Of a DNA stretch of 41,756 bases, positions 1,399 to 29,512 are shown one piece after another (position 1 is the first letter of the stretch; each line of letters opens with the position of its first letter). The translations under genes and the position numbers were made by a program. The notes beneath the pieces are model-generated. The model saw only the letters and a program-made list of their open reading frames with translations. It was not told the DNA's origin and did not search any database. The stretch is from Betaproteobacteria bacterium (GTDB taxonomy: Bacteria > Pseudomonadota > Gammaproteobacteria > Burkholderiales > Burkholderiaceae_C), in contig JANYKR010000153.1 of NCBI GenBank assembly GCA_025358155.1, forward strand, positions 1-41,756, written 5' to 3'.

Positions 1399-2097
1399 AT
1401 GCTGGGGTTCCCGGTCGTGCTTGATGCCGGCTTGTGGTTGACCTTGCTGGGCGGGGCTGCACTCGACGATGACGAAGTGCAGGCGCTGTGCGCGGTAGCG
1501 CAGACACGCCAGATCGCCGCAGGGCAGAGCGTGTTCGGCCGTGACACCCCTGCCGGCACGCTGGTCGCGTTGCGCAGCGGCGAAGTGGCGCTGGGGTTCC
1601 GCACGGCGGAGGGCAGTTTCCGCACCGAGCGCATCGTGCGCGGCCCGGCCTGGCTTGACCTGAGTTCTGCATGGCTGGCCGGCACCCATGCGATGGACGC
1701 CCAGGCGTTGGGCCCGGTGAACGTGATCGACCTGCCGTGTGAAGCGCTGGCCGACCGCCTGGCACAGCTGCCCGGTCTGGCGCAGCGTCTGATACACGGC
1801 CTGGCCCGCGAGGTGCAGGCACTGGCGGTCAATACCCACGAGCTGATGCACAAGGATGCGCCGGCCCGGTTGGCCCAGTGGTTGCACCAGCGCTGCGAGC
1901 CGGTGGCGGGTGCCGAGGGTCAGGCCATCGTCCGGCTGCATGAGCGCAAGCGCGATGTGGCCTCGCAACTGGCGATCACGCCCGAGACCTTGTCCCGGCT
2001 GATGCGCAGCTTCAGCCGCAAGGGCGTGATCGAGGTCAGCGGCTACAACCTGCGGGTGCTCGACCCGGCGGCGCTGGAACTGCTGGGTCGGGCCTGA
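1399..2097 (+). CDS. Crp/Fnr family transcriptional regulator
   Basis: The protein has an N-terminal cyclic-nucleotide-binding-like beta barrel (AAGQSVFGRDTPAGTLVALRSGEVAL) and a C-terminal winged helix-turn-helix (KRDVASQLAITPETLSRLMR). No cysteine cluster of the Fnr type is present, so oxygen sensing through an iron-sulfur cluster is unlikely; the effector is unknown. Start choice is uncertain. ATG 1399 gives 232 residues, the usual family length. ATG 1300 (265 aa) and ATG 1189 (302 aa, preceded by GGAG) are in frame, but codons upstream of 1399 (TCA, TCT, GTT, TTT, AGG, AGA) look non-coding. The last 55 bp overlap the end of convergent xdhC, so a role in xdh control is possible but unproven. 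Confidence 0.82.
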   Translation: MLGFPVVLDAGLWLTLLGGAALDDDEVQALCAVAQTRQIAAGQSVFGRDTPAGTLVALRSGEVALGFRTAEGSFRTERIVRGPAWLDLSSAWLAGTHAMDAQALGPVNVIDLPCEALADRLAQLPGLAQRLIHGLAREVQALAVNTHELMHKDAPARLAQWLHQRCEPVAGAEGQAIVRLHERKRDVASQLAITPETLSRLMRSFSRKGVIEVSGYNLRVLDPAALELLGRA

Positions 2098-2924
2098 GCC
2101 TGCGCTTTTGCCGCTGACTGGCAGCTGGCCGCCACCTGCAGCAACTGCGCCACCACGGCCAGCGCGATCAGCTCCGGCTGCTTGCCGGGGATGCCTGGCA
2201 CGCCGATCGGGCAGGTCAGCCGGGTCAATGCGTCGGCCGCCACGCCGCGCTGGGCTAGGCGAGCGAGGAACCTCGCTCGTTTGGTGGCCGACCCGATCAG
2301 GCCGAAAAAGCCGAAGTCGCCGCGCCGCAGCACCGCCTCGGTGATGCGCAGGTCCAGCTCGTGGCTGTGGGTCAGCACCAGGCAGAACGCGCCGGGCAGC
2401 GCCTGCTGCACCTCGGCTTCGACACCGTCCACGCACAGCCGCGTGATGTGTGGCGCGGACGGCGTGGCCGGAAACTCGGCCTCGCGCTCGTCGATCCACG
2501 ACACCCGGCATGGCACGGTGTCCAGCAGGTGGACGATGGCACGACCGACATGGCCGGCGCCGTAGAGCTGCAGGTCAAACAGGGATGCCTCGGCCGGCCA
2601 GTCGGCCAGGGCTGCGGCGTCCAGCGCCGCGGTTCGCAGCGTCAGGGCGCCGCCGCAGCATTGGCCCAGCGTGGGGCCCAGTGCGATGGCCTGGTCGTCG
2701 GGCTCCGCGCCTGCACCCGCGTCCAGCAGCGCCCGGGCGCGCTGTATCGCCTGCAACTCCAGGTGGCCGCCGCCGATGGTGCCGGCCACCGCATCGGCCG
2801 CCACCAGCATGCGGGTGCCGGCGCCACGGGGCACTGAGCCCCGGGCCGCCAGCACCTGCACCAGCATCGCCGGTCGGCCGGTGTCCAGCCAGGCCAGCGC
2901 GGTGAGCCGGTCGGCGTCGATCAT
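2043..2924 (-). CDS. xdhC: XdhC, xanthine dehydrogenase maturation factor
   Basis: XdhC binds molybdenum cofactor, helps its sulfuration and inserts it into XdhB; it is not part of the final enzyme. The 293-residue protein shows the family blocks: GSVPRGAGTRM (29-39), GTIGGGHLE (48-56), LGQCCGGAL (86-94), a Rossmann motif YGAGHVG (121-127), LTHSHELD (184-191), GFFGLIGSATKRARF (205-219) and CPIGVPGIPGKQPE (238-251). It is the third gene of xdhABC; its ATG overlaps the stop of xdhB by 4 bp (ATGA), suggesting coupled translation. After residue 265 the tail becomes Ala/Ser-rich, and its last 17 codons overlap the convergent Crp-type gene, so the tail may be a recent extension. Confidence 0.95.
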   Translation of the reverse strand: MIDADRLTALAWLDTGRPAMLVQVLAARGSVPRGAGTRMLVAADAVAGTIGGGHLELQAIQRARALLDAGAGAEPDDQAIALGPTLGQCCGGALTLRTAALDAAALADWPAEASLFDLQLYGAGHVGRAIVHLLDTVPCRVSWIDEREAEFPATPSAPHITRLCVDGVEAEVQQALPGAFCLVLTHSHELDLRITEAVLRRGDFGFFGLIGSATKRARFLARLAQRGVAADALTRLTCPIGVPGIPGKQPELIALAVVAQLLQVAASCQSAAKAQAQARPSSSSAAGSSTRRL

Positions 2925-5332
2925 GGGCCGCGGCCGGCGGGGCTGACCCCGGTTGCGCCGGCGACCAGGCGCACCGCGTCGATCGCATCCAGCACTGCCT
3001 CGGGCGTGGCTGGGGCGCGCAGCGGCGGGCAGGTCTGGTGGCCGCCCACTGCCGAGACCGCATCGCGGATCGCCAGCAACACCGAAAACGGCAGCAGCAG
3101 CGGCGGCTCGCCCACCGCCTTGCTGCGGTGGATGGTGTCGGCGGGGTTGGCCTGGCCGTACAGCCGCACGTCAAAGTGGGCCGGGCAGTCGTTGGCGGTC
3201 GGGATCTTGTAGGTGCTGGGCGCGTGGGTCATCAGCTTGCCGGCGTTTTTTGAGCCGTCCAGCGGCTGCCAGTACAGCGCTTCGCTGGTCAGCCAGCCCA
3301 TGCCCTGGATGAACGCACCCTCGACCTGGCCGATGTCGATGGCCGGGTTGAGCGAAGCGCCCACATCGTGCAGCACGTCGGCGCGCAGCAGCTTGTGCTC
3401 GCCGGTCAGGGTGTCCACCACCACCTCGCTGCAGGCTGCGCCGTAGGCAAAGTAGTGGAACGGCCGGCCCTTCAGCGTCGCCCGGTCCCAGTGCAGGCCG
3501 GGCGTGGCGTAAAAGCCGTCGCTCCAGAGCTGCACCCGGGCTTGGTAGGCCTGCATCACGAGCGCGTCGAAACCCAGGGTCAGCGCGCCGGCACTGACCT
3601 GGCCGTTCTCGAACCGCAGCGTGGCGGCATCCACGCCGTGCTGGCTGGCAAAAAACGCCGCCAGGCGCTCGCGGATCTGGCGCGCCGCATCCTGCGCCGC
3701 CTTGCCGTTCAGGTCGGCGCCGGTGGACGCGGCGGTGGCCGAGGTGTTGGCCACCTTGTGGGTGTCGGTGGCTGTCACCCGCACCCGCTCGAAGGCCACG
3801 CCCAGCTCATGGGCCACCACCTGCGCCACCTTGGTGTTGAGGCCCTGGCCCATCTCGCATCCGCCGTGGTTGACCAGCACCGAGCCATCGGCATAGACAT
3901 GCACCAGCGCGCCGGCCTGGTTGAAGTGCGCCACGTTGAACGAGATGCCGAACTTGACGGGCGTCAGCGCCAGCCCGCGTTTGAGCACCGGGCTGCGGGC
4001 GTTGTAGGCGTTGATCGCTGCCCGCCGGGCGGTGTAGTCGGCCTGGGCTTCGAGCTGGCCGACCAGCGCGCTGATGATGTTGTCCTCGACCACCTGCTCG
4101 TAGGGCGTGACGTTGTTGGACGTGGTGCCGTAGAAGTTGGCGCGCCGCACCGCCAGCGCATCCAGCCCCAGCCGTCGAGCCACGCTGTCGAGAATCATCT
4201 CGATCGCCAGCGCACCTTGCGGCCCGCCAAAACCGCGAAAAGCGGTGTTGCTCTGGGTGTTGGTGCGGGCGCAAAAGCCCTGCATCGCCACGTCGGGCAA
4301 CCAGTAGGCGTTGTCGAAGTGGCACAGCGCACGCGTCATGACGGGTGGCGACAGGTCGGCCGAGTGGCCGGCGTTGGCCACCATTTGCACGGTCACCCCG
4401 AGGATGCGGCCCTGCCCGTCATGGCCCACGTCCCACCCGTACTCGAAGCCGTGGCGCCGGCCGGTGATCAGCATGTCGTCGTCGCGGTCGGGCCGCAGCT
4501 TGACCGGCCGCTGCAAGCGCTGCGCCGCCAGCGCAGCAACGCAGGCAAACAGCGCGCTCTGGCTCTCCTTGCCACCAAAACCGCCGCCCATGCGCCGGCA
4601 GCTCACCTGCACCCGGTGCGAGGCCAGCTGCAGCGCATGCGCCACCAGGTGTTGCATCTCGCTGGGATGCTGGGTGCTGCAGTGCACCAGCAGGCCGCCG
4701 TCTTCTTGCGGGATGGCGTAGCTGATCTGGCCCTCCAGGTAGAACTGCTCCTGGCCGCCGAGTGAAAAACCGCCTTGGAAGCGGTGCGGTGCGGCGGCCA
4801 GCGCGGCCTCGGCGTCGCCGCGCGCCAGCTGCACAGGCGGCACCACGTACTGCTCGCGGGCGTGGGCATCGAGTGCGCTGAGCACTGCGGGCAGAGGTTC
4901 GAGCTGGATCGCTTTTGGGGCCAGTGCGGCGGCGCGGCGGGCGGCGTCGCGGCTGGTGGCGATCACCGCAAACACCGGCTGGCCGACGTGGCGCAGCTCG
5001 CCCTCGGCCAGGATCGGGTCGTCGTGCACGATCGGCCCGCAGTCGTTGGTGCCGGGCAGGTCGGCTGCGGTGTAGACCGCCACCACGCCGGGCTGGGCGC
5101 GCAGCAGGGCCAGGTCGATGGCCAACAGCCTGCCATGCGCCACCGGTGACAGACCGAGCGCGGCATGCAGCGTGCCGGCGATCTCGGGCAGGTCGTCGAT
5201 GTAGGGTGCGGCGCCGGCCACGTGCAGGTGGGCCGATTCATGCGGGCGGCTGATGCCGACCTGGGCGCCTGCCTGGATGTTGGGTTGGATGGCGGTCTCG
5301 GCGGCGCCCAAGGCTTCGCGGGGGGCGTTCAT
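2921..5332 (-). CDS. xdhB: Xanthine dehydrogenase molybdenum subunit XdhB
   Basis: The 803-residue catalytic subunit oxidises hypoxanthine to xanthine and xanthine to urate at a molybdopterin centre in the cytoplasm. Landmarks: LGGQEQFYLE (191-200) with a substrate-pocket Glu, GGGFGGKES (249-257) for cofactor binding, DRDDDMLITGRRH from 282, Arg366 in AFRGFGGPQG (364-373), and VGEPPLLLP from 740, whose Glu742 should be the base that activates the hydroxylating water. These match the two-subunit bacterial xanthine dehydrogenases typified by Rhodobacter capsulatus. Its ATG overlaps the xdhA stop by 4 bp, as does its own stop with xdhC. Retention of the Glu and Arg pocket residues argues for a purine rather than an aldehyde substrate. 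Confidence 0.96.
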   Translation of the reverse strand: MNAPREALGAAETAIQPNIQAGAQVGISRPHESAHLHVAGAAPYIDDLPEIAGTLHAALGLSPVAHGRLLAIDLALLRAQPGVVAVYTAADLPGTNDCGPIVHDDPILAEGELRHVGQPVFAVIATSRDAARRAAALAPKAIQLEPLPAVLSALDAHAREQYVVPPVQLARGDAEAALAAAPHRFQGGFSLGGQEQFYLEGQISYAIPQEDGGLLVHCSTQHPSEMQHLVAHALQLASHRVQVSCRRMGGGFGGKESQSALFACVAALAAQRLQRPVKLRPDRDDDMLITGRRHGFEYGWDVGHDGQGRILGVTVQMVANAGHSADLSPPVMTRALCHFDNAYWLPDVAMQGFCARTNTQSNTAFRGFGGPQGALAIEMILDSVARRLGLDALAVRRANFYGTTSNNVTPYEQVVEDNIISALVGQLEAQADYTARRAAINAYNARSPVLKRGLALTPVKFGISFNVAHFNQAGALVHVYADGSVLVNHGGCEMGQGLNTKVAQVVAHELGVAFERVRVTATDTHKVANTSATAASTGADLNGKAAQDAARQIRERLAAFFASQHGVDAATLRFENGQVSAGALTLGFDALVMQAYQARVQLWSDGFYATPGLHWDRATLKGRPFHYFAYGAACSEVVVDTLTGEHKLLRADVLHDVGASLNPAIDIGQVEGAFIQGMGWLTSEALYWQPLDGSKNAGKLMTHAPSTYKIPTANDCPAHFDVRLYGQANPADTIHRSKAVGEPPLLLPFSVLLAIRDAVSAVGGHQTCPPLRAPATPEAVLDAIDAVRLVAGATGVSPAGRGP

Positions 5333-6840
5333 GACAGGCTCCAGACCGAGGTTTCAGCCGCCGGCATGGGCGCGTCCGGCCGGGTCTCCAGCCACAAGCG
5401 CAGCAGCAGGTTGCGGGCGGCCCGGCGGCGGTAGTCGGCGGACGCGCGCACGTCCGACAAAGGCTGGAAGTCGCGGTCCAGCGCTGCCATGGCGGCCTGC
5501 ACCGTGGGCTCGGTCCAGGGCTGGCCCAGCACGGCGGCCTCGGCGCCTGCAGCGCGTTTGACGGTACCGGCCAGGCCGCCAAAGGCAAACCGCGCCGCCT
5601 GAACGGTGTTGCCCGCAAGCTGCAACCACAGGCCGGCCGACAAACCCGAGATGTCGCAGTCGAAGCGCTTGCTCAGTTTGTAGACCCGCAGCTGGTCGGC
5701 CGGCTGGGGCAGGGGCACCCGAAGCGATTCGACAAACTCGCCGGGCTGGAGCTGGTTTTTCATGTAGTCCAGGTAGAAATCCTGCAGCAAGAGCGTGCGT
5801 TGCGCCTCGCCCCGGCGCAGCACGATGCGAGCCCCCAGCGCCATCAGCACCGGCGCGCCGTCGCCGATCGGCGAGCCGTTGGCGATGTTGCCGCCCAGCG
5901 TGCCCGCCTCGCGGATCGGCAGCGACGCAAAACGCAGCCCCATCTGGCGTGCGGCAGGCCAGAGCGCGGCCAGTGCGGTCCAGGCTGCGTCGAGCGACGC
6001 GCCAGCGCCGATCTCCAGCCAGTCGCCTTCGGCGGTTCCGGTGAGTGTGGTGGTGATCGTCTTGAGCTCGGCCACCTCGCCCAGGTAGATCAACTCGCCC
6101 AGCTCGCGAAACTGCTTGTTGACCCACAGCCCGATGTCGGTACTGCCGGCCAGCAAGCGGGCCTCGGGCCTGGCCAGCCGCAAGGCCGCCAGGTCAGCCA
6201 GCGTGCGCGGCGCGTGCAAGGGCGTGGCGGCGGCGTAGTGCAGCGGCGGGTCGGCCCGCATGGCCAGCAGCGCTGCGCGCATGGCGGGGCTGTCCAGCAT
6301 TGGCCTGGGCAGGTCAAACATCTGTTGGCCGGCGTCCAGGATCGGTCGGTAGCCGGTGCAGCGGCACAGGTTGCCTGACAGGTCGTCGGCGAGTTGCTGG
6401 CGCGAGGCTGTTGTGCCGGCCGCGCCGTGGCGGTCCAGCGTAGCGGCCAGCGACACCACAAAGCCCGGTGTGCAAAAACCGCACTGCGAGCCGTGGCAGG
6501 CCACCATCGCTTGCTGCGCCGGATGCTGGCCGCCCAGGTCTTCAACCGTCAACAACGCCTTGCCGTCGAGCGTGGGCAAAAACTGGATGCAGCTGTTGAT
6601 CGGCTTGAAGCGCACCGAGCCCTCGGTCTGCAACTCACCCACCAGCACGGTGCAGGCGCCGCAGTCGCCTTCGTTGCAGCCCTCCTTGGTGCCGCTGCAG
6701 CGGGCATGCTCGCGCAGCCAACTGAGCACCGAGGTGGTCGATTCCAACCCTTGCACCGAGACGGTCTCGCCCCGGTGAAAAAAGCGGATGGGCCGGGCGA
6801 CTTCGACCGGGGCTGGGCTGGATTGGGGTGCCTGGGACAT
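5329..6840 (-). CDS. xdhA: Xanthine dehydrogenase FeS/FAD subunit XdhA
   Basis: This subunit passes electrons from the molybdenum centre through two [2Fe-2S] clusters to FAD and NAD+. With the ATG at 6840 it has 503 residues. A plant-type ferredoxin domain carries Cys55, 60, 63 and 84. An alpha-helical second cluster domain carries Cys120, 123, 159 and 161 (CGFCTPG, CRCTGYRP). An FAD domain follows with LLAGSTDIGLW and LGGNIANGSPIGD, then the CO-dehydrogenase-flavoprotein-type C-terminus. A further in-frame start 39 bp upstream would add residues with no homology, so the ATG at 6840 is preferred. First gene of xdhABC, divergent from the LysR regulator across about 76 bp. Confidence 0.95.
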   Translation of the reverse strand: MSQAPQSSPAPVEVARPIRFFHRGETVSVQGLESTTSVLSWLREHARCSGTKEGCNEGDCGACTVLVGELQTEGSVRFKPINSCIQFLPTLDGKALLTVEDLGGQHPAQQAMVACHGSQCGFCTPGFVVSLAATLDRHGAAGTTASRQQLADDLSGNLCRCTGYRPILDAGQQMFDLPRPMLDSPAMRAALLAMRADPPLHYAAATPLHAPRTLADLAALRLARPEARLLAGSTDIGLWVNKQFRELGELIYLGEVAELKTITTTLTGTAEGDWLEIGAGASLDAAWTALAALWPAARQMGLRFASLPIREAGTLGGNIANGSPIGDGAPVLMALGARIVLRRGEAQRTLLLQDFYLDYMKNQLQPGEFVESLRVPLPQPADQLRVYKLSKRFDCDISGLSAGLWLQLAGNTVQAARFAFGGLAGTVKRAAGAEAAVLGQPWTEPTVQAAMAALDRDFQPLSDVRASADYRRRAARNLLLRLWLETRPDAPMPAAETSVWSLS

Positions 6841-6916
6841 ACCCGTAAGGTAGCCGCTGCACGGCGCAGTGCTATACATTTTGAGACATATCCGCTATCG
6901 GGTTGGGCGTATCACA
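6841..6916. promoter_or_regulatory. Shared xdhA / lysR divergent control region
   Basis: Only 76 bp separate xdhA from the LysR start. Positions 6871-6896 are unusually A/T-rich for this window (TATACATTTTGAGACATATC) and contain ATA and TAT arms (6874-6876, 6889-6891) separated by 12 bp. This is loosely like an A/T-rich LysR-type site but is not a clean match to T-N11-A. Divergent LysR/target arrangement is the usual context for direct and autogenous control. No exact -35/-10 boxes are claimed. Confidence 0.45.
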
Positions 6917-7864
6917 GTGGCTTCGGCATTCGACAAGATCGAGCTCTCACTCATCCGGGCCTTTCACACCGTGATCACCGAGCGCAGTGTTTCGCGCGCC
7001 GCCCTGAAGCTGCGCACCACCCAGCCTGCACTGTCAGGCCAGTTGAAGCGCCTGCGTACCCTGATCGGTGACCCGCTGCTGGTGCGCGCCGGCAACGGCA
7101 TGGCGCCCACCACCGTGGCGCTGGGCCTGCTGCCGGCGGCAGCCCAGGTGTTGCAAGGAGCGCAGGCGCTGTTTGGCGGCCATGCCGCGGCCCAGGGTTT
7201 TGCACCGGCGCTGGCGACCCAGCACTTCCGCATTGCCGCCAGCGACTACCTCGACCCGCTCTTTTTGCCCGAGCTGGTGGCCCGGATGCGCAACCAAGCG
7301 CCGGGCGTCACGCTGGACCTGCTGCCGCTGACCCGCGACTACGACTACCGGGGCCATCTGGCCCGGGGCGAGGTGGACCTGGTGGTGGGCAACTGGCTGT
7401 CGCCGCCAGCCGAGTTGCATCTGGGCCGACTGGTCAGCGACGAGATCGTCTGCTTGGTGGGCCTGGACCACCTCGCGCTGCGCAACCCGCGCCAGTGGAC
7501 AGCCGAGCGCTACCTGGCCTGCGAGCACATCGCGCCCACGCCGTTGCATGCGGGCGGCGTGGGCGTGGTCGACGAGTTGTTGCAGGCGCAGGGCAACCAA
7601 CGCCGCATCGTGGTGCGCAGTGCGCATTTCGGCCTGGCGCCGGCGATGGTGGCGCGCTCGTCTTTGGTGCTGAGCACCGGCCGGCAGTTTTGCAGCCGCT
7701 ACATCGGCAGTCTGCCGGTGCGCATCGTGCCCTGTCCGATGGCGTTTCCGACGCTGACCTACTACCAGCTCTGGCATGAGCTGACCCATGCCTCGAACGC
7801 AGTGCGTTGGCTGCGTGAGCAGGTGCGCGACGTGGCACGCGAGTTGGCGGGGGGCCGGGCATGA
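6917..7864 (+). CDS. LysR family regulator of the purine locus
   Basis: LysR-type regulators bind DNA as tetramers and respond to a pathway metabolite. From GTG 6917 the protein has 315 residues. The winged helix-turn-helix occupies about 8-65 (LIRAFHTVITERSVSRAALK, then TTQPALSGQLKRL); the substrate-binding domain follows from about 95. The motif FDKIELSLIRAF at the start resembles the NodD-like subgroup. A GTG at 6869 is also in frame but would add 16 residues upstream of the fold. It is divergent from xdhA and its stop overlaps the guaD ATG (ATGA, 7861-7864), so it probably controls both arms of the purine locus. The effector, perhaps a purine or urate, is an inference. Confidence 0.85.
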   Translation: MASAFDKIELSLIRAFHTVITERSVSRAALKLRTTQPALSGQLKRLRTLIGDPLLVRAGNGMAPTTVALGLLPAAAQVLQGAQALFGGHAAAQGFAPALATQHFRIAASDYLDPLFLPELVARMRNQAPGVTLDLLPLTRDYDYRGHLARGEVDLVVGNWLSPPAELHLGRLVSDEIVCLVGLDHLALRNPRQWTAERYLACEHIAPTPLHAGGVGVVDELLQAQGNQRRIVVRSAHFGLAPAMVARSSLVLSTGRQFCSRYIGSLPVRIVPCPMAFPTLTYYQLWHELTHASNAVRWLREQVRDVARELAGGRA

Positions 7865-9198
7865 GCGCTGCCATGCCGGTCAAAGCGGCCATCCTGGCTG
7901 ATTTGCTCGACTTCACCGGCGACCCCGGCCAGAGCGACCGCCACAGCCCAGCGGTGCGCTGGCGGCCGGCACACTGGCTGCTGATCGACGCCGTCGGCCG
8001 CATCGCCGCAGTGCAGCCCGAGCCCCCCGGCGACGACTGGTTGAAGCTCGACCACAGCGGCCGCTTGCTGCTGCCAGGCTTCATCGACACCCATGTGCAC
8101 AGCCCGCAGATCGATGTGATCGCGTCCTGGGGCACCGAGTTGCTCGACTGGCTCAACACCTACACCTTCCCGGCCGAGGCGCGCCATGCCGATCCGGTGT
8201 TTGCCCAGGCCGCAGCCGACCTGTTTCTGGACGCGCTGCTGGCGCACGGCAGCACGGCAGCGGTGGTGTTCCCCACCGTGCACCCGACCAGCGCCGATGC
8301 GCTGTTCGCCGCCGCCCAGCAGCGGGGCATGCGCGTGATCGCCGGCAAGGTGCTGATGGACCGCCACGCGCCCGACAACCTGCGCGACGACGTGGCGCAG
8401 GCCCGCATCGATTGCACCGCCCTGATCGAGCGCTGGCACGGTCGGGGGCGGCTGGCCTATGCGGTGACACCGCGTTTTGCCGCCACCAGCAGCCCCGAGC
8501 AACTGGCGATGGCGGGCCAGCTGTTGGCCGACCACCCGGGGCTGTACCTGCAGACCCATGTGGCCGAAAACCGCGCCGAGGTGGCCTGGATCGCCGAGCT
8601 GTTTCCCGAGGCCCGCAGCTACCTTGATGTCTACGCCCGGCACGGCCTGCTCAGCGAGCGGGCGGTGCTGGCCCACGGCATCTGGCTCGACGACACCGAC
8701 CGGGCGCTGCTGCACGACAGCGGCGCGCAGATTGCGTTCTGCCCCTCGTCGAACCTGTTTCTGGGCAGCGGGCTGTTCGGCTGGCAGCAGGCGGCCGCTG
8801 CGGGGGTCAACGTCAGCCTGGCGTCGGACGTGGGCGGTGGCACCTCCTTGTCGATGTTGCGCACCCTGGCCGACGGCTACAAGGTGCAGGCGCTGGCCGG
8901 CAACCGGCTCACCGCCTGGGCCTTGCTGCATGCCGCCACCCGGGGCGCGGCGCAGGCCTTGCGGCTGGGCAGCGAGATCGGCAGGCTGGAGCCCGGCCTG
9001 ATGGCCGACCTCTGCATCTGGGACCGGGCCGTGGGCGCGGTGGCACAACGCCGCGACAGCCTGGCCCACGGTTTGCATGAACGCCTGTTTGCCTGGCTCA
9101 CGCTGGGCGACGAGCGCAACCTGGTCGAGGCCTGGGTCGGCGGCGTCTGCCGCAGCCGGCGGCCCGCCGCGGTGGCCCGCAGTGATGGCCTGACCTGA
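7861..9198 (+). CDS. guaD: Guanine deaminase
   Basis: Guanine deaminase hydrolyses guanine to xanthine and ammonia. The 445-residue amidohydrolase has the zinc motif PGFIDTHVHSPQ with His78 and His80. Further ligands are in QTHVAEN (His233) and LAHGIWL, and Asp323 is in SDVGGG. The stretch SPQIDVIASWGTELLDWLNTYTFPAE is diagnostic of guanine deaminase among amidohydrolases. Translation is coupled to the LysR gene through ATGA, and the nucleoside transporter starts 37 bp downstream. Its product xanthine is the substrate of the divergently encoded XdhAB, which strongly supports the assignment. Confidence 0.95.
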   Translation: MSAAMPVKAAILADLLDFTGDPGQSDRHSPAVRWRPAHWLLIDAVGRIAAVQPEPPGDDWLKLDHSGRLLLPGFIDTHVHSPQIDVIASWGTELLDWLNTYTFPAEARHADPVFAQAAADLFLDALLAHGSTAAVVFPTVHPTSADALFAAAQQRGMRVIAGKVLMDRHAPDNLRDDVAQARIDCTALIERWHGRGRLAYAVTPRFAATSSPEQLAMAGQLLADHPGLYLQTHVAENRAEVAWIAELFPEARSYLDVYARHGLLSERAVLAHGIWLDDTDRALLHDSGAQIAFCPSSNLFLGSGLFGWQQAAAAGVNVSLASDVGGGTSLSMLRTLADGYKVQALAGNRLTAWALLHAATRGAAQALRLGSEIGRLEPGLMADLCIWDRAVGAVAQRRDSLAHGLHERLFAWLTLGDERNLVEAWVGGVCRSRRPAAVARSDGLT

Positions 9199-9235
9199 TG
9201 CCCTGACCCGCTGCACTCAAAACAACGAGGACCCC

Positions 9236-10790
<1,555 letters not shown>

Positions 10791-10804
<14 letters not shown>

Positions 10805-11948
10805 AGCCCGACCCGCGCCGTCCCGGTTTTTTGCCTGGGCCTCGCCGGTGCTTTCGCTGTTGATCACCATCGCGGTGGCGACTCTGCTGTTCATCCTGCT
10901 CGGCAAAGACCCGGTGCGCAGCCTCACGGTGTTTCTGATCGAGCCGTTTCACGGCCTGCGCTCGATCACCGAACTGGGCCTCAAGGCCACGCCGCTAATC
11001 CTGTGCTCGCTGGGGCTGGCGCTGTGTTTCCGCAGCAACGTCTGGAACATCGGCGCCGAGGGCCAGTACCTGGCGGGCGCGATGCTGGCGGGTGGGCTGG
11101 CACTGTGGGTGACCGATGCCAACCTGGGCCTCAACCGCTGGGTGTTTTTGCCGCTGGCGATCATCGCTGGCGCGCTGGGCGGTGCGGCCTGGGCGTCGAT
11201 CGTGGCGCTGCTGCGCGACCGCTTCAACGCCAACGAGATCCTGGTCAGCCTGATGCTGGTCTACGTGGCCAACCTGCTGCTGAACTGGCTGGTGTTCGGC
11301 CCCTGGAAAGACCCCAAGGGCTTCAACTTTCCGCAAAGCGTGAGCTTTGCCGACGGTGCGGCAATCCCGCGCATCATCGCCGGCATGCGGCTGAACTGGG
11401 GTTTTGCGGTGGCGCTGCTGGCGGCAGTGGGCATGTGGCTGTTCATGTCGCGCTTCTACCTGGGCTTTGCGTTGCAGGTGGGTGGCCTGGCGCCGGCGGC
11501 GGCGCGCTACGCCGGGTTTTCAACCCGGTCGGCGCTCTGGACCTCGTTGCTGACCTCGGGTGCGCTGGCCGGTGTGGCGGGGGCTTTTGAGGTGGCCGGG
11601 CCGATGGGCCAGCTCACGCCGTATGTCTCCAACAACTACGGCTTCACCGCGATCATCGTGGCCTTTGTCGGCCGGCTGCATCCGCTGGGCTGTGTGTTCG
11701 GCAGCGTGCTGCTGTCGATGTTTTTGATCGGCGGTGAGCTGGCGCAGTCACGGGTCGGCCTGCCGTCCGCGCTCAGCGGCGTGTTCCAGGGCGTGTTGCT
11801 GTTTTCGCTGCTGGCCTGCGACACCTTGATCCACTACCGGCTACGCTGGTTAGACGCGGGGCGGACCGAGCGCCGGGCCGCCCCAAGCCGGCCCGCCATC
11901 CCCTTGGGGGATCGGTCGGCGTACTCGACGAACGAGGGGTCGAAATGA
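10791..11948 (+). CDS. ABC transporter permease 1, BMP/nucleoside type
   Basis: This inner-membrane permease has 385 residues and about nine hydrophobic segments, starting with one near residues 18-40. Conserved family stretches include LGLALCFRSNVWNIGAEGQ and, near the C-terminus, NNYGFTAIIVAFVGRLHPLG. The first matches the NIGAEGQ signature of nucleoside and branched-chain-type permeases. It starts inside the end of the ATPase gene and its stop overlaps the next permease ATG (ATGA), so the set is translationally coupled. The last 30 residues or so are polar, Arg/Pro-rich and unlike a permease tail; they are encoded by a hairpin-forming sequence (11881-11909). Confidence 0.92.
11881..11909 (+). 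repeat. REP-like hairpin inside the permease 3' end
   Basis: CCCCAAG at 11881-11887 pairs with CTTGGGG at 11903-11909 across a 15-nt loop that is rich in C and G. This kind of CCCCAAG...CTTGGGG palindrome resembles intergenic repeats known from Comamonadaceae-type genomes; that likeness is from memory and was not searched. Here it is translated as part of the non-conserved C-terminal tail of permease 1, and the next gene starts at 11945. Confidence 0.5.
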
Positions 11949-12865
11949 CCGAGACCGCACTGCTGATTGCCGCCATGCTGGCCTCGGGCACGCCGCTGGC
12001 GATTGCCGGCCTGGGCCTGTTGATCAACGAGAAAGTGGGCGTGCTCAACCTCGGTGCCGAGGGCATGCTGCTGGTGGGTGCGGTCACCGGCTTTGCGGTG
12101 TCGTTCCATACCGGCAGCACGGTATTGGCCATGCTGGCAGGGGCGGGTGCGGCGGCGCTGCTGGCGGCCATCTTCGGCTGGCTGGTGATCTGGATCAACG
12201 CCAACCAGTACGCCACCGGCTTGGCGGTCAGCCTTTTTGGTGGCGGTTTTTCGGCCTTTGTCGGTGTGCCCTACGTCGGCCAGAAGCTGGGCGCGCCGGT
12301 CAGCCATGCGATACCGCTGCTGGGTGACATCCCGTTTTTCGGCCCGGCGCTGTTCCGCCAGCATCCAATGGTCTACCTCAGCGTGATCGCGGTAGCGGTG
12401 GTGGCCTGGTTTTTCTACCGGACGCGCGCCGGACTGGTGTTGCGCGCGGTGGGCGAGTCGCCCGAGTCGGCGCATGCGCTGGGCTACAAGGTGCGCTTGC
12501 TGCGCTTGGCTGCGGTGCTGGCAGGCGGCGCGCTGTGCGGCGTGGCGGGTGCCTACCTGTCAACCGTCTACACCCCCTTGTGGGTCGAGGGCATGGTGGC
12601 CGGACGGGGCTGGATCGCGCTGGCGCTGACCGTGTTTGCCACCTGGCGACCGGCCCGGATCTTGCTGGGTGCTTATCTGTTCGGCGGCGTGACCATGTTG
12701 CAGTTGCACCTGCAAGGCCTGGGCGTGGAAGTACCCAGCCAATTCTTGAGCATGTTGCCGTATGTGGCTACCGTGGTGGTGCTGGTGCTGATCTCGCGCA
12801 ACCCGATCTGGCTGCGGGCTAACATGCCAGCGTCGCTTGGCAAACCGTTTTTCCCCGGCGGATAG
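11945..12865 (+). CDS. ABC transporter permease 2, BMP/nucleoside type
   Basis: The second inner-membrane permease has 306 residues and about eight hydrophobic segments. The block GLGLLINEKVGVLNLGAEGM near residues 22-41 is the hallmark of this half of nucleoside importers, pairing with NIGAEGQ in permease 1. AGRGWIALALTVFATWRP is the conserved C-terminal region. It starts within the stop of permease 1. A 97-bp gap with a hairpin and a palindrome separates it from the binding-lipoprotein gene. Confidence 0.92.
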   Translation: MTETALLIAAMLASGTPLAIAGLGLLINEKVGVLNLGAEGMLLVGAVTGFAVSFHTGSTVLAMLAGAGAAALLAAIFGWLVIWINANQYATGLAVSLFGGGFSAFVGVPYVGQKLGAPVSHAIPLLGDIPFFGPALFRQHPMVYLSVIAVAVVAWFFYRTRAGLVLRAVGESPESAHALGYKVRLLRLAAVLAGGALCGVAGAYLSTVYTPLWVEGMVAGRGWIALALTVFATWRPARILLGAYLFGGVTMLQLHLQGLGVEVPSQFLSMLPYVATVVVLVLISRNPIWLRANMPASLGKPFFPGG

Positions 12866-12870
12866 GTCGG

Positions 12871-12899
12871 GGGCTGGGGCCGTGTCACGGTGCCAGCCC
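12871..12899 (+). terminator. Hairpin between permease 2 and the binding lipoprotein
   Basis: GGGCTGG (12871-12877) pairs with CCAGCCC (12893-12899), and CCGT/ACGG pairs inside it with a GTC loop. There is no strong T-run after it. It may protect the 3' end of the upstream message or act as a partial terminator, adjusting the ratio of binding protein to permease. Confidence 0.45.
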
Positions 12900-12916
12900 G
12901 AACCTGTTCTAGAAGT

Positions 12917-12932
12917 CGCTCATGCATGAGCG
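12917..12932. promoter_or_regulatory. Perfect 16-bp palindrome upstream of the BMP lipoprotein
   Basis: CGCTCATGCATGAGCG reads identically on both strands with no spacer. It ends 30 bp before the ATG of the BMP lipoprotein gene and lies upstream of its ribosome binding site (GGAG). A dimeric repressor or activator site is a good guess. Which protein binds is unknown; it does not resemble the A/T-rich xdhA-lysR region. Confidence 0.5.
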
Positions 12933-12962
12933 TTGTGATATCAAAACCAAGTAGGAGTCCCG

Positions 12963-14117
<1,155 letters not shown>

Positions 14118-14124
14118 TCGCTTG

Positions 14125-14146
14125 GGCCCGGGTCTCGACCCGGGCC
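14125..14146 (+). other. Perfect hairpin just after the BMP lipoprotein gene
   Basis: GGCCCGGGTC (14125-14134) and GACCCGGGCC (14137-14146) are exact complements; in RNA this is a 9-bp stem with a CTCG loop. It begins 8 bp after the stop and has no T-run. Likely role: a 3' barrier that stabilises the lipoprotein message. Confidence 0.55.
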
Positions 14147-14248: not shown

Positions 14249-15286
14249 ATGATCGAGCACAGCTGCTGGCACCCGGTGGCCCAGGCCATGGACCTGGGTA
14301 CCGCACCCTTGGGCGTGACCCTGCTGGGCCAGCGCCTGGTGCTGTGGCGCGGCGGTGACGGCGGCCACCTCCAGGCCTGGGACGACCGCTGCCCGCACCG
14401 CGGCGCCAGCCTGTCGCTGGGCTGTGTGCGGGCGGGGCCGGACGGCGCGCAACTGGAATGCGCCTACCACGGCTGGCGCTTTGGCGCCGGCGGCCAGGTC
14501 GTCAGCGTGCCGGCCTTGCCGGGCTTTGTGCCGCCCGCCGCGCACCGCGCCACAGCTTATGCGGTGGCCGAGTCCTACGGCCTGCTGTGGGTGTGTCTGC
14601 AGCCGGACGCCGACGCGGCTGCGCCTGCCGCCGCCATCCCCGCCATACCCGCCATCCCCGCTTTTGCTGCCGAGCTTGACGGCCGGCTGCGCAAAGTCAA
14701 CTGCGGCCCGTACCTGGTCGCCACCAGCGCGCCGCGCATCGTCGAGAACTTTCTCGACATGGCGCACTTCGGCTTTGTGCATGAACACTGGCTCGGCAGC
14801 CGCGAGCACACCGCCATTGCCGACTACACCGTGGTGGCGACACCCACCGGCCTGCTGGCCACCGGCTGCAAAGCCTGGCAGCCCCGATCCAGCGTGCATG
14901 CCGAGGGCGGCGCCGATGTGGAGTACACCTACGAGGTCAACGCCCCGTACACGGCGATACTGACGAAGATCCCTGATGCCAGCAGCGTCGCGCTGCAAGA
15001 CTTCCGCGAATCGATCGCGCTGTTCATCTGCCCGCTCACGCCCGAGACCAGCCAGGTCTGGTTCCGGCTGGCGATGAACGACTTCGACTCACCCGAAGCC
15101 AAGCTGCAGGCCTTCCAGCACACCATCTTCACCCAGGACCAGCCGGTGCTGGAGTCGCAGCGGCCGCGTTGCCTGCCGATCGGCGACAACGCACCGGTGC
15201 GCGAGCTGCACAGCGCCGCCGACCGCAGCGCCACCGCCTACCGCCGCTACCTGCGCGAGCGCGGCATCACTTTTGGAACCTGCTGA
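14249..15286 (+). CDS. Rieske non-heme iron oxygenase, HpxD/NdmA-like candidate
   Basis: The 345-residue oxygenase has a Rieske [2Fe-2S] site with Cys48, His50, Cys71 and His74 (CPHRG, CAYHGWRF). Its catalytic iron site is in NFLDMAHFGFVHEH: Asp170 bridges, His173 and His178 bind iron, and Asp297 in FTQDQPVLESQ should be the third ligand. This layout fits single-component-alpha (VanA, dicamba O-demethylase, NdmA) oxygenases rather than dioxygenases with a beta subunit. Rieske enzymes already known on purines are HpxD (hypoxanthine use in Klebsiella) and NdmA/B (methylxanthine N-demethylation). Its place between the purine receptor and adenine deaminase, 2 bp from the latter, points to a purine substrate. 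No reductase partner is in the window. AAGGA precedes the ATG. Confidence 0.88.
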   Translation: MIEHSCWHPVAQAMDLGTAPLGVTLLGQRLVLWRGGDGGHLQAWDDRCPHRGASLSLGCVRAGPDGAQLECAYHGWRFGAGGQVVSVPALPGFVPPAAHRATAYAVAESYGLLWVCLQPDADAAAPAAAIPAIPAIPAFAAELDGRLRKVNCGPYLVATSAPRIVENFLDMAHFGFVHEHWLGSREHTAIADYTVVATPTGLLATGCKAWQPRSSVHAEGGADVEYTYEVNAPYTAILTKIPDASSVALQDFRESIALFICPLTPETSQVWFRLAMNDFDSPEAKLQAFQHTIFTQDQPVLESQRPRCLPIGDNAPVRELHSAADRSATAYRRYLRERGITFGTC

Positions 15287-15288
15287 CC

Positions 15289-16371
15289 ATGATCCCACCC
15301 CCCACCGCCGACTTCAAAACCGTGCTCGACCGCATCCCCCGCAGCCGCCTGCCCGAGCTGCTGCGCAACGCGCCCAAGGCCGAGCTGCACATCCACATCG
15401 AGGGCTCGCTGGAGCCCGAGCTGATCTTCGCGCTGGCCCAGCGCAACGGCGTTCCGCTGGCCTACCCCAGCGTGGAGGCGCTGCGCGCGGCCTATGCCTT
15501 CAGCGACCTGCAAAGCTTTCTTGACATCTACTACGCCGGCGCCAGCGTGCTGCTGCAGGAGGACGACTTTCACGCGATGGCGATGGCCTACTTTGCACGG
15601 GCAGCGGCCGACCATGTGGTGCATGCCGAGCTGTTTTTTGACCCGCAAACCCACACCGACCGCGGCGTGCCGATGGCCCATGTGATCAACGGTCTGGCGC
15701 GGGCCTGCGCCGATGCGCGTAGCCAGCACGGCATCGACGCGTCGCTGATCCTGTGCTTCTTGCGTCATTTGTCTGAGGACGCCGCGCTCGCCACGCTGCA
15801 GGCCGCCCTGCCGTACCGCCAGCACTTCATCGGCGTCGGGCTGGACAGCAGCGAGCGGGGCCATCCGCCCGAGAAGTTTGCCCAGGTGTTTGCCCGCGCC
15901 CGTGCGCTCGGCCTGCACCGGGTGGCCCACGCCGGCGAAGAGGGGCCGCCGGCCTACATTGAGAGCGCGCTCGACGTGCTCAAGGTCGAACGCATCGACC
16001 ACGGCGTGCGCTGCGTCGAGAGCCCGGCGCTGGTGGCCCGCTTGGCGGCGTCGCGCATGCCGCTCACCGTCTGCCCGCTGTCCAACGTCAAGCTCTGCGT
16101 CTACCCGACGATGGCCGATCACCAGCTGCCGGCACTGCTGGACGCCGGCCTGTGCGCCACCGTCAACAGCGACGACCCGGCCTACTTTGGCGGCTACCTG
16201 AATGACAACTTCATCGCCACCTTCGACGCTCTGCCGCAGTTGGGCCCGCGCCAGGCCTGGCAGCTGATGCACAACAGCTTCGAAGCCAGTTTTGCCTCAG
16301 CCGAGGCCAAGGCCGGCTGGATGACCGCGCTGGACCGGGCATTTGCCGAGGCCGCCCCAGCGCTGCCCTGA
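15289..16371 (+). CDS. Adenine deaminase (adenosine-deaminase superfamily)
   Basis: This cytoplasmic zinc enzyme probably converts adenine to hypoxanthine and ammonia. The 360-residue protein has HIHIEGSLEPE with zinc ligands His34 and His36, then HAGEEGPPAY with the catalytic Glu, ERIDHGVR, and NSDDPAYFGGY. The stretches LQSFLDIYYAGA, FFDPQTHTDRG and GLDSSERGHPPEKF are typical of the adenine-specific bacterial/fungal group (PA0148 of Pseudomonas, yeast Aah1) rather than true adenosine deaminases. Automatic annotation often labels such proteins adenosine deaminase. It starts 2 bp after the Rieske stop without a clear ribosome binding site, so translation is likely coupled. Hypoxanthine made here would feed XdhAB. 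Confidence 0.92.
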   Translation: MIPPPTADFKTVLDRIPRSRLPELLRNAPKAELHIHIEGSLEPELIFALAQRNGVPLAYPSVEALRAAYAFSDLQSFLDIYYAGASVLLQEDDFHAMAMAYFARAAADHVVHAELFFDPQTHTDRGVPMAHVINGLARACADARSQHGIDASLILCFLRHLSEDAALATLQAALPYRQHFIGVGLDSSERGHPPEKFAQVFARARALGLHRVAHAGEEGPPAYIESALDVLKVERIDHGVRCVESPALVARLAASRMPLTVCPLSNVKLCVYPTMADHQLPALLDAGLCATVNSDDPAYFGGYLNDNFIATFDALPQLGPRQAWQLMHNSFEASFASAEAKAGWMTALDRAFAEAAPALP

Positions 16372-26711: not shown

Positions 26712-27179
26712 TCAGCCCGATGCAGCCAGCAGGTTCGCAGCCCGGTGGATGGCCGTGCGGATGCGCGGGTAGGTGCCGCAGCGGCACAGGTTGCCATTCA
26801 TCGCCGTGTCGATCTGCGCGTCGTCGGGCTGGGGCAAGGTCTTGAGCAGCGCGGCAGCGGCCACCAACTGTCCGCTTTGGCAGTAGCCGCATTGCACCAC
26901 GTCGATCTCGGTCCAGGCCTGGCGCAAGACCGTGATCTCGCGGCCTTGCAGGCCCTCGATCGTGGTCACCGCGCGCTGGCCCACGGCCGAGATCGGGGTG
27001 ACGCAGGCGCGGGCCGGCTCACCGTCGATCTGCACGGTGCAGGCGCCGCACAAGGCCATGCCGCAGCCGAACTTGGTGCCGGTCAGCTGCAGCTCACCGC
27101 GCAACACCCACAGCAGCGGGGTGTCGGGCTCGGCCGTCACGCTGACGGGTTTGTTGTTGATCGTGAGGGTGATGGTCAT
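26712..27179 (-). CDS. IorA-like [2Fe-2S] subunit of a molybdenum hydroxylase
   Basis: This 155-residue electron-transfer subunit has two [2Fe-2S] clusters. The ferredoxin-type cluster uses Cys39, 44, 47 and 59 (GCGMALCGACTV). The second uses Cys97, 100, 132 and 134 (CGYCQSGQ, LCRCGTY). The small size without an FAD domain, and the partner of the IorB type next door, match isoquinoline 1-oxidoreductase-like or aldehyde-oxidising periplasmic enzymes. The ATG at 27179 fits the conserved N-terminus. Unusually, the 50 bp upstream are a C/A-type tandem repeat on the coding strand with no Shine-Dalgarno sequence. It lies 56 bp downstream of the large subunit gene. Confidence 0.93.
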   Translation of the reverse strand: MTITLTINNKPVSVTAEPDTPLLWVLRGELQLTGTKFGCGMALCGACTVQIDGEPARACVTPISAVGQRAVTTIEGLQGREITVLRQAWTEIDVVQCGYCQSGQLVAAAALLKTLPQPDDAQIDTAMNGNLCRCGTYPRIRTAIHRAANLLAASG

Positions 27180-27235: not shown

Positions 27236-29512
27236 TCAGGCCAGCTTGAGGGGCAGGCTGCGCAGGCGCTGGCCGGTCAGCGCGAACAACGCATTGGCCA
27301 CGGCGGGCGCGATCGGCGGCGTGCCGGGCTCGCCCACGCCTTCGGGCGGCTCGGTGCTGGGCATGATGTGGGTATTGATCACCGGGCAATCGCTCAAGCG
27401 CAGCAACGCTTGCTGGTGGAAGTTGGTCTGCTGGACCTGGCCCTTGTCCAGCGTGATCTCGCCAGACAGCGCGGCGGTCAGGCCAAACACCACCGCGCTC
27501 TCCATCTGCTGGCTGATCCCGTTGGGATTGACCGCCATGCCGCAGTCGATGACGGCCACCACCCGGTGCACCCGGATGCGCTTGGGGTCTTTCGGGTCCA
27601 GCGAGACCTCGGCCACCTGGGCCACCACGCTGCCAAAGCTCGAATGCAGCGCGATGCCACGGGCCCGCTTGGCGCCGTCGGCGGCGGGTGCCAGCGGCTG
27701 GCCCCAGCCGGCCCGGTCAGCCGCACGCTGCAGCACCGCGCGGTGGCGTGGGTGGCGGGTCAGCAAGGCCAGGCGGAAGGCCAGCGGGTCTTGCCCGGTG
27801 GCGTGTGCCGCCTCGTCGACAAAACTCTCCTTGAAAAACGCCTGGTGCGAATGGCCCACCGAGCGCCAGAAGCCCACCGGCACCGGCAGCTCGACGATGG
27901 CGTGGCCGACGCGGGCGTTGGGCCACTCGTAGGCCTGGTCAAACGCACCCTCGGCGGTGGTCTTGTCCGGGCCGGCGCCTGGCAGGCCAAACTGCCGGCG
28001 CAAGAACTGCTGCACGATCGACGGCCCGGCGGACTTTGCCGCCCACGCCACCGGCTTGCCCTGGGCGTCAAAGCCGGCTTCGTAACGCGCCACGCAAGGT
28101 GGCCGGTACAGGTCGTGTGTCATGTCCTGCTCGCGGGTCCAGCCCGTCTGCACCGGCAAGCCGGGCAGGGCGCGGGCGATGGTGGCGGCCTGGGCGACAA
28201 AGTCCACGTCCAGCCGGCGGCCAAAGCCGCCGCCCAGCAGGGTGACTTTGACCTCGACCTGATCGCTGTCCAGGCCGAGTGCCTTGGCAGCGGCGTAGCG
28301 CGCCAGGCCGGGTACTTGCGTAGGCGCCCAGACCGTCGCCCGGCCGTCCAAGACCTGCACGGTGCAGTTCTGTGGCTCCAGCGTGGCATGCGCCAGCAGC
28401 GGCGCGCTGTACTCGGCACGCAAGGTCTTGGCGGCCTGCTGGAGTGCCGCTGCAACGTCGCCGTGGCGGTAGTAGCCAAAACCATCGCCGGCATCGAGCG
28501 CCTGGCCGAGTTGCCGGGTGATGCCGGCGCTCGACAGGGCCGCCGCCGGGCCGTGGTCCCAGGTGACGGCGACGGCCTTGGCCGCCTGCATCGCGTGCCA
28601 GGGCGTGTCGGCCACAGCCGCCACCGCGCCACTGCCGCCGTGCTGGCCGGGCACCGACAGCACCTTCTTGACCCCCGGCATCGCCTCGGCCGCCTTGGCG
28701 TCGAAACTGGCCACGCTGCCGCCCAGGGTCGGGCACATCACCACGCTGGCGTACAACATGCCGGGCAGCACGGTGTCGATGCCGAAGCGGGCACTGCCGT
28801 CCTGCTTGCCTGCCGCCTCGCGCCGCTTTTGCGGCTGGCCGATCAGTTTGAAGTCGGCGGCGGTCTTGAGCGTGACCGAGCCGGGCAGCGGCAGCGCGGC
28901 AGCCCGCTCGGTGAGCTCACCGAACTTGGCGCTGCGGCCCGACCCGGCATGGCTGACCACACCCTTGGCCACCCGGCACTCGGCCGCCGGCACACCCCAG
29001 CCCTGGGCCGCAGCGGCCACCAGCATGGCGCGGGCACTGGCGCCGGCCTCGCGCATCGGCAGCCACAGGTCCTTGATGCTGGACGAGCCGCCGGTGGCCA
29101 TCAGGCCGATCTCGCGCATGGTCTTGGCGGTCAGCCAGGCGGCCGTGCGCTTGACCAGGCCGTGCTCGTCGGGATGGAACGGCAGGCCGTCGGCAACGGT
29201 GGCGATGTTGTTGTAGATCGCGTCGATCGGCGGGTGCTCGGTGCGCAGCCGGTCCCAGTCGGCGTCGAGCTCATCGGCCAGCAGCATCGCCAGGCCGGTG
29301 GTCGCGCCCTGGCCCATCTCGCTCTTGGGCACCATCACTGTCACCACGTCGTCCGTGCCGATCTTGACCCAGCCATTGAAGGCTTTTTGCCCGGCTGCGA
29401 CCGGCAAAGGCTGGCTGCCGGTGAGGCGCTGGCGGGGCGGCAGCACACCCCAGCCCACCACCAGGGCGCCGGTGGCGGCCAGGCCGCCCAGAAGCAGATG
29501 TCGACGTTTCAT
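27236..29512 (-). CDS. IorB-like molybdopterin subunit of a molybdenum hydroxylase
   Basis: The 758-residue catalytic subunit belongs to the single-chain IorB group of the xanthine dehydrogenase family. An N-terminal Tat-like signal (MKRRHLLLGGLAATGALVVG) predicts export of the folded enzyme with its partner. Motifs: SEMGQGATTGLAML (64-77), GGGFGRRLDVDF for cofactor binding, GFWRSVGHSHQAFFKESFVDE for the substrate pocket, and VGEPGTPPIAPAVANAL near the C-terminus, carrying the catalytic Glu. Substrates in the group are N-heterocycles or aldehydes, and electrons usually go to a cytochrome c subunit. No cytochrome gene is in the window, so the electron acceptor is unknown. No XdhC-like chaperone is adjacent. 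Confidence 0.92.
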   Translation of the reverse strand: MKRRHLLLGGLAATGALVVGWGVLPPRQRLTGSQPLPVAAGQKAFNGWVKIGTDDVVTVMVPKSEMGQGATTGLAMLLADELDADWDRLRTEHPPIDAIYNNIATVADGLPFHPDEHGLVKRTAAWLTAKTMREIGLMATGGSSSIKDLWLPMREAGASARAMLVAAAAQGWGVPAAECRVAKGVVSHAGSGRSAKFGELTERAAALPLPGSVTLKTAADFKLIGQPQKRREAAGKQDGSARFGIDTVLPGMLYASVVMCPTLGGSVASFDAKAAEAMPGVKKVLSVPGQHGGSGAVAAVADTPWHAMQAAKAVAVTWDHGPAAALSSAGITRQLGQALDAGDGFGYYRHGDVAAALQQAAKTLRAEYSAPLLAHATLEPQNCTVQVLDGRATVWAPTQVPGLARYAAAKALGLDSDQVEVKVTLLGGGFGRRLDVDFVAQAATIARALPGLPVQTGWTREQDMTHDLYRPPCVARYEAGFDAQGKPVAWAAKSAGPSIVQQFLRRQFGLPGAGPDKTTAEGAFDQAYEWPNARVGHAIVELPVPVGFWRSVGHSHQAFFKESFVDEAAHATGQDPLAFRLALLTRHPRHRAVLQRAADRAGWGQPLAPAADGAKRARGIALHSSFGSVVAQVAEVSLDPKDPKRIRVHRVVAVIDCGMAVNPNGISQQMESAVVFGLTAALSGEITLDKGQVQQTNFHQQALLRLSDCPVINTHIMPSTEPPEGVGEPGTPPIAPAVANALFALTGQRLRSLPLKLA

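Follow-up and report, generated by a model that had tools for sequence, protein, structure and literature searches.

Introduction

NdmCDE, the split, glutathione S-transferase (GST)-dependent N7-demethylase of caffeine degraders, removes the last methyl group of caffeine; its catalytic subunit NdmC lacks a Rieske domain of its own, which is supplied by NdmD. According to PMC4408171, the substrate demethylated by NdmCDE is 7-methylxanthine, while the caffeine N1- and N3-demethylases NdmA and NdmB are located together with NdmD and formaldehyde genes. A second purine-related system is hpxDE, reported in PMC7373994 to oxidise hypoxanthine and xanthine, with the addition that Rieske-type genes like hpxD occur under xanthine riboswitches. 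SxtT and GxtA, guanidinium-alkaloid hydroxylases of biosynthetic context, are assayed with VanB (PMC7293229). Here, we compare with these systems a Rieske oxygenase gene (14249..15286, + strand) of a Betaproteobacteria bacterium of the Burkholderiaceae_C, lying in a purine operon on contig JANYKR010000153.1, the 41,756 nucleotides of which are referred to as the window. By sequence comparison, the window protein is real and conserved and represents a single-chain form sister to NdmC and NdmD taken together; it is neither an HpxD nor an NdmA or NdmB. We propose, with a probability of roughly 40%, that it is a purine-acting single-chain Rieske monooxygenase, likeliest an N-demethylase of a natural N-methyl purine working with a non-dedicated reductase; substrate, reaction, reductase and substrate orientation are all inferred here from genomic comparison. 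Among the papers listed in the literature searches, none on the single-chain clade of the window protein was seen, and no characterised member of it was found.

The window protein is a single-chain relative of NdmC and NdmD

The open reading frame (ORF) is complete and encodes 345 residues, with a Rieske domain at about residues 1-117 (Pfam Rieske, E 1.4e-19) and a catalytic domain at about residues 118-345 (Pfam VanA_C, E 2.7e-22). The product is a Rieske non-haem iron oxygenase alpha subunit, possessing the Rieske motif, the bridging Asp and the 2-His-1-carboxylate triad. Specifically, the Rieske ligands C48, H50, C71 and H74 together with Asp170, as well as the iron ligands H173, H178 and D297, are invariant in two comparisons, one of 131 rows (131/131; the window protein, its orthologues and one row nearer to NdmC, L088) and one of 36 rows (36/36).

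Among the annotated groups compared, the sequence trees and scores indicate NdmC as the nearest kin of the catalytic part, and the NdmD Rieske domain as that of the Rieske part. In the catalytic-domain tree, 32 window-clade rows, 14 NdmC-like rows and three other single-chain rows form a clade with a support of 93/88, and the HpxD-like and NdmA/B rows fall outside it. The Rieske-domain tree groups the window protein with the Rieske domains of NdmD, with those of split subunits and with five single-chain rows (90/83), the HpxD and NdmA/B rows being again apart. The trees left out four in five of the close orthologues and half of the remaining rows. Two NdmC-like genes were also left out, the seemingly interrupted one of L232 and that of L099, which had been combined with another match into a single row. 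NdmC and NdmD were represented by similar proteins, chiefly those of Paraburkholderia caffeinilytica (L229), instead of the Pseudomonas putida CBB5 originals, and HpxD by the annotated Pantoea protein instead of the original one of Klebsiella; for DdmC, the comparison was limited to score and fold.

A profile built on the window clade scored NdmC-like proteins at 162-206 bits, HpxD-like ones at 93-107, NdmA/B at 64-87 and three VanA-like rows at 26-36. The approximately unbiased (AU) test disfavours a clade with HpxD (p 0.020) and one with NdmA/B (p 0.036); a clade with VanA, where branches are long, is not rejected (p 0.284). An earlier reading of this DNA, made from the letters alone (hereafter the sequence-only reading), had listed the same Rieske and iron ligands, all of which proved invariant in the rows compared, and its preference for a purine-type over a VanA-type enzyme agrees with the profile scores. 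The tree placement that it looked to separates the window protein from HpxD and NdmA/B; as regards VanA, the profile scores are the lowest of all, and the AU test leaves that clade standing. HpxD, NdmA and NdmB, the relatives it named, are thus not the nearest ones; NdmD entered that reading only as a reductase, and NdmC and the NdmD Rieske domain were not considered as kin.

As a guide to HpxD, we also tried HpxO, and this was abandoned: next to the sole HpxO above the cut-off (L214) lie xanthine dehydrogenase (XDH) genes but not a Rieske gene, and a search of three further HpxO-like loci yielded no Rieske motif.

An active-site motif of the window clade resembles that of NdmC

The helix leading to the iron-binding Asp reads F289-Q290-xx-I293-F294-x-Q296-D297, with Q290 conserved in 99%, I293 in 98%, and F294 and Q296 in 100% of the 131 rows. 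This motif matches the FQxxIFxQD of NdmC and differs from those of NdmA (FNxxVFxED), NdmB (FQxxVLxED) and HpxD (FNxxVFxED). NdmC also shares the C-terminal YRR(W/Y)L, the late G343 and the surroundings of a BMP-type importer. On the alignment, Q290 and F294 coincide with the pair of residues that is replaced in structures of the 'QL' mutant of NdmA, and Q290 and I293 with Tyr273 and Thr276 of SxtT (counted from its iron ligand Asp280), where SxtT and GxtA carry Tyr and Thr; both SxtT residues contact the substrate (PMC7293229). Q290, I293 and F294 are therefore likely substrate positions.

The Rieske gene is embedded in a conserved purine operon

On the plus strand, the operon runs from a guanine deaminase gene (7861..9198; TIGR02967, 487.9 bits, cut-off 375.4) through the ATPase (9236..10804) and the two permeases (10791..11948 and 11945..12865) of an ATP-binding cassette (ABC) importer, in an order conserved in relatives, to its BMP/PnrA-type receptor (12963..14117; PF02608, E 2.2e-53), the Rieske gene and a second deaminase gene (15289..16371). 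It is preceded by the gene of a LysR-type regulator (6869..7864, +), in relatives often found between xdhA and the importer, which likely regulates the island. On the minus strand, divergently oriented, lie the genes for the XDH small subunit XdhA (5329..6879; TIGR02963, 609.7 bits, cut-off 467), the molybdopterin subunit XdhB (2921..5332; TIGR02965, 1262 bits, cut-off 849.5) and the maturation protein XdhC (2043..2924; TIGR02964, 277 bits, cut-off 161.6).

The deaminase downstream is named an adenosine deaminase by NCBIfam (NF006850, 541 bits, cut-off 419). Within that family, however, it is of the adenine deaminase type: the solved structures closest to it are 3ou8 (378 bits), which we take to be PA0148, an adenine deaminase, and 3rys (356 bits), all others reaching at most 131 bits. 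The Rieske gene starts 131 bases 3' of the receptor stop codon, and its TGA (15284-15286) is followed after 2 bases by the deaminase ATG at 15289. Directly downstream of the receptor stop codon and before the Rieske gene, a perfect 9-bp GC hairpin with a loop of 4 and no T run was read by eye (14125..14146, +); it might separate receptor expression from that of the downstream genes. No Rfam match was obtained in the window, so no riboswitch was seen near the operon.

Fer2 profile matches in the window are two only, XdhA and 27015-27164, the latter accompanying a second molybdenum hydroxylase recognised by eye (ORF 27236-29512, minus strand); because these are the only ones, the operon contains no reductase of the VanB, NdmD or HpxE type. 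The whole genome has 14 Fer2 matches, XdhA included, and its VanB-like reductase gene, identified by motif and by eye, adjoins a VanA-like oxygenase gene on another contig (L218).

Accordingly, most of what the sequence-only reading had said of the locus stands: the position between receptor and adenine deaminase, the translational closeness to the latter (correct because stop and start codons are 2 bases apart), XdhAB in the same locus and the lack of a dedicated reductase. Its remark that a redundant hypoxanthine hydroxylase would be odd gains support from the XDH genes encoded beside the Rieske gene, and a modified purine is indeed the better guess.

The arrangement recurs in relatives, with the Rieske gene as an accessory

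In an even sample of 399 genomes of the family, a Rieske match (E <=1e-20) was found in 158. We followed 103 of these with their surroundings (scores above about 230 bits), and 55 were dropped before counting, owing to low scores or as fragments (for instance G110, G061, G191, G277, G249, G310 and G342). Of these, 100 relatives share about 45% identity or more with the window protein. In 79 of them no more than 400 bases separate the Rieske gene from the deaminase gene downstream, and in a further 10 the distance is up to 6 kb; the receptor gene lies within 600 bases upstream in 78. XDH genes are present in 27/43 loci of the family that span 16 kb or more. In the named loci, the best 80 of 477 relatives found, the deaminase gene is next in 50/77, the receptor gene is at most 900 bases upstream in 49/67, and XDH genes occur within about 10 kb upstream in 35/44. 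Orthologues up to 72% identical occupy the same place in other genomes, so gene and position are not due to chance. Outside the family the gene is rare, with a match at 1e-20 in 11/369 genomes of the class, three of these in the family itself.

In five of the 80 named loci, a nucleosidase-family gene stands directly upstream of the Rieske gene (L139, 9356-10984; L126; L135; L143; L168), and in L135, L143 and L168 it sits between receptor and Rieske gene.

The deaminase is commoner than the Rieske gene (307/399 family genomes, E <=1e-80), and in 20 picked Rieske-less genomes the receptor gene directly precedes the deaminase gene in seven and lies within 3 kb of it in seven more; the Rieske gene is therefore an accessory of a standard purine operon. 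A functional analogue taking its place in Rieske-less genomes was considered and rejected, as the ORFs in eight such gaps look unrelated by eye. In addition, all 22 carrier genomes chosen contain the urate-oxidase family PF06181, presumably PuuD, and the HIU-hydrolase family PF00576. With XDH adjoining and these two families in 22/22 carriers, ordinary purine breakdown should not need a Rieske enzyme. We rejected urate oxidation as its role because both families occur in all these carriers, and the replacement of a missing XDH because XDH is encoded next to it.

Related enzymes are also found split or fused

Separate Rieske and catalytic subunits form one further arrangement. A split version occurs in purine-importer operons of Rhizobium leguminosarum (L240) and of a genome of another family (L105), which comprise Rieske, catalytic, GST and amidohydrolase genes and a BMP importer; the amidohydrolase is nearest to 8-oxoguanine deaminase, below the cut-off of that model. 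No reductase gene was found in the L240 plasmid operon stretch 5977-13451. Another arrangement fuses the catalytic domain to a reductase: in Variovorax L233, a Rieske protein of 228 residues is encoded along with a 604-residue protein that joins the catalytic domain and the reductase. On a megaplasmid of Niallia taxi (L231:5346-7963), a single-chain relative (174 bits), which the tree does not place firmly, comes after a permease gene recognised by eye, both downstream of a purine riboswitch (86.6 bits), the sole Rfam match in eight comparator loci; its core is GACTAT, the C of which we take as the mark of guanine-type aptamers. A guanine-deaminase-like gene, also assigned by eye, lies there on the other strand.

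The window protein is matched by 129 Rhizobium and 66 Sinorhizobium plasmid records. For plasmid relatives in public records, the annotation goes no further than aromatic ring-hydroxylating dioxygenase subunit alpha.

Proposed function and alternatives

In our judgement, a purine is very probably the substrate of the window enzyme. In the scheme that we favour, a modified purine base would enter through the BMP-type ABC importer and would bind with its imidazole (N7/C8) edge facing the mononuclear iron. A VanB-type reductase that is not dedicated to this enzyme, and whose gene lies elsewhere, would supply electrons from NADH. Oxidative N-demethylation, of 7-methylguanine or 7-methylxanthine in the first place, would yield formaldehyde together with a base, guanine or xanthine, that could then be converted to urate by guanine deaminase and XDH. 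Such a reaction would explain why a purine operon that can do without an oxygenase for the ordinary bases has acquired one. If true, this would be a catabolic route for modified bases, for example 7-methylguanine from RNA turnover, none being found described in the literature searched.

Several observations weigh against N-demethylation or against the kinship on which it is based. The fork that most directly unites the window clade with NdmC-like rows has a support of no more than 87/69 in the catalytic-domain tree, and the Rieske-domain tree rests on 111 columns. Q290 and F294 are also present in the VanA-like paralogue of the same genome, so the motif alone is supportive and not diagnostic. 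Three positions differ from NdmC: A209 (100%) against F209 (100%), T239 (86%) against Y239 (100%) and H321 (95%) against P321 (100%), and with small residues at 209 and 239 the window clade is nearer to HpxD. Some NdmC-like rows with no assigned reaction (L105, L240) themselves stand in purine operons. Finally, the formaldehyde genes frmA and fghA were found in 0/45 relatives' loci of at least 16 kb and in 0/37 named loci of at least 18 kb. The same frmA query matches four of nine NdmC-like loci (L095, L096, L097 and L229) and gave no match in L040, a short locus, or in L105, L233, L239 and L240. A formaldehyde dehydrogenase gene is also located close to an HpxD-like gene on a plasmid (L241). 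The genes that accompany NdmC in NdmCDE were likewise found neither in the operon of the window nor near the relatives of the clade, neither an NdmE-like GST gene nor an NdmD- or VanB-type reductase gene having been detected in those 45 and 37 loci.

Because of this counter-evidence, hydroxylation at C8, although on balance unlikely, stays a serious rival to N-demethylation. In this case the enzyme would be a molybdenum-independent C-hydroxylase of an unmethylated purine, probably oxidising guanine, adenine or hypoxanthine at C8 so that an 8-oxo base results, or else a backup of XDH at low molybdenum, as for HpxDE. HpxD is a single-chain purine Rieske oxygenase of like length, with about 35% identity between its annotated Pantoea form and the window protein; in the profile scores, the HpxD-like rows are surpassed only by the NdmC-like and single-chain ones, and the small residues at 209 and 239 as well as the activity reported for hpxDE point the same way. 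So do the 8-oxoguanine-deaminase-like gene of the Rhizobium split operon, below its model's cut-off as it is, and the riboswitch-governed permease that the Niallia taxi relative follows. Against this, XDH is encoded beside the Rieske gene here and occurs in most loci of both counts given above, the trees and the AU test place the window protein away from HpxD, and Pantoea hpxD has an adjoining reductase gene, of which none was found for the window clade.

Quite improbable, in our judgement, is N6-dealkylation of a modified adenine, N6-methyladenine or the like, with the resulting adenine passing to the coupled deaminase. The 2-base gap and the deaminase next in 79/100 relatives would suit it, but the nearest characterised kin acts at N7, in another part of the ring. 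In addition, the deaminase is far commoner than the Rieske gene, so the pair is not obligate, and in the five loci with a nucleosidase-family gene directly upstream no deaminase gene adjoins the Rieske gene.

That the enzyme oxidises a 7-deazapurine or some other compound resembling a purine, such as a queuosine-related base, is highly improbable. The single-chain relative L088 stands, by eye, directly before queC, and queE follows the Rieske gene in 23/127 loci searched (e.g. L110:12316-14715), queD being present in 21 of these and guaD in 17. However, when the 87 loci of 16 kb or more are considered, queD and queE occur nearby in nine and queC in one, and queE/queD accompany guaD rather than the Rieske gene itself; in such loci, the queuosine precursor genes adjoin guanine deaminase.

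That the window protein is VanA-type, a VanA/DdmC-like aromatic ether demethylase in the operon by happenstance, is very unlikely and the weakest of these explanations, for all its VanA_C match and the AU result, the VanA-like rows having the lowest profile scores.

With N-demethylation as the favoured reaction, a wider scenario is conceivable, though we hold it only tentatively: the single-chain branch would be widespread, NdmCDE its derived, broken-apart relative, and many Burkholderiales would salvage N-methylated nucleobases by means of the standard purine importer and a shared reductase. With an unsplit counterpart present in a purine operon in many Burkholderiales, and with the further arrangements described above, the question of how the caffeine enzyme arose can be put to the test. 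The counterpart may also offer a simple one-chain enzyme, perhaps with VanB, for purine N7-demethylation or C8 oxidation, and it draws attention to an unassigned step of purine catabolism.

Two minor observations concern related genes elsewhere. On P. putida plasmid pPp1290, the apparently interrupted NdmC-like gene (L232:6818-7627) was recognised as two match pieces, and an HpxD-like gene adjoins hpxO. In Mycetohabitans (L230:5367-10852), a related Rieske oxygenase gene lies in an apparent small biosynthetic cluster with genes for an HpaB-like monooxygenase, a diaminobutyrate-type aminotransferase and an N-monooxygenase, an arrangement also seen by eye in a genome of the family (L093:8185-13512).
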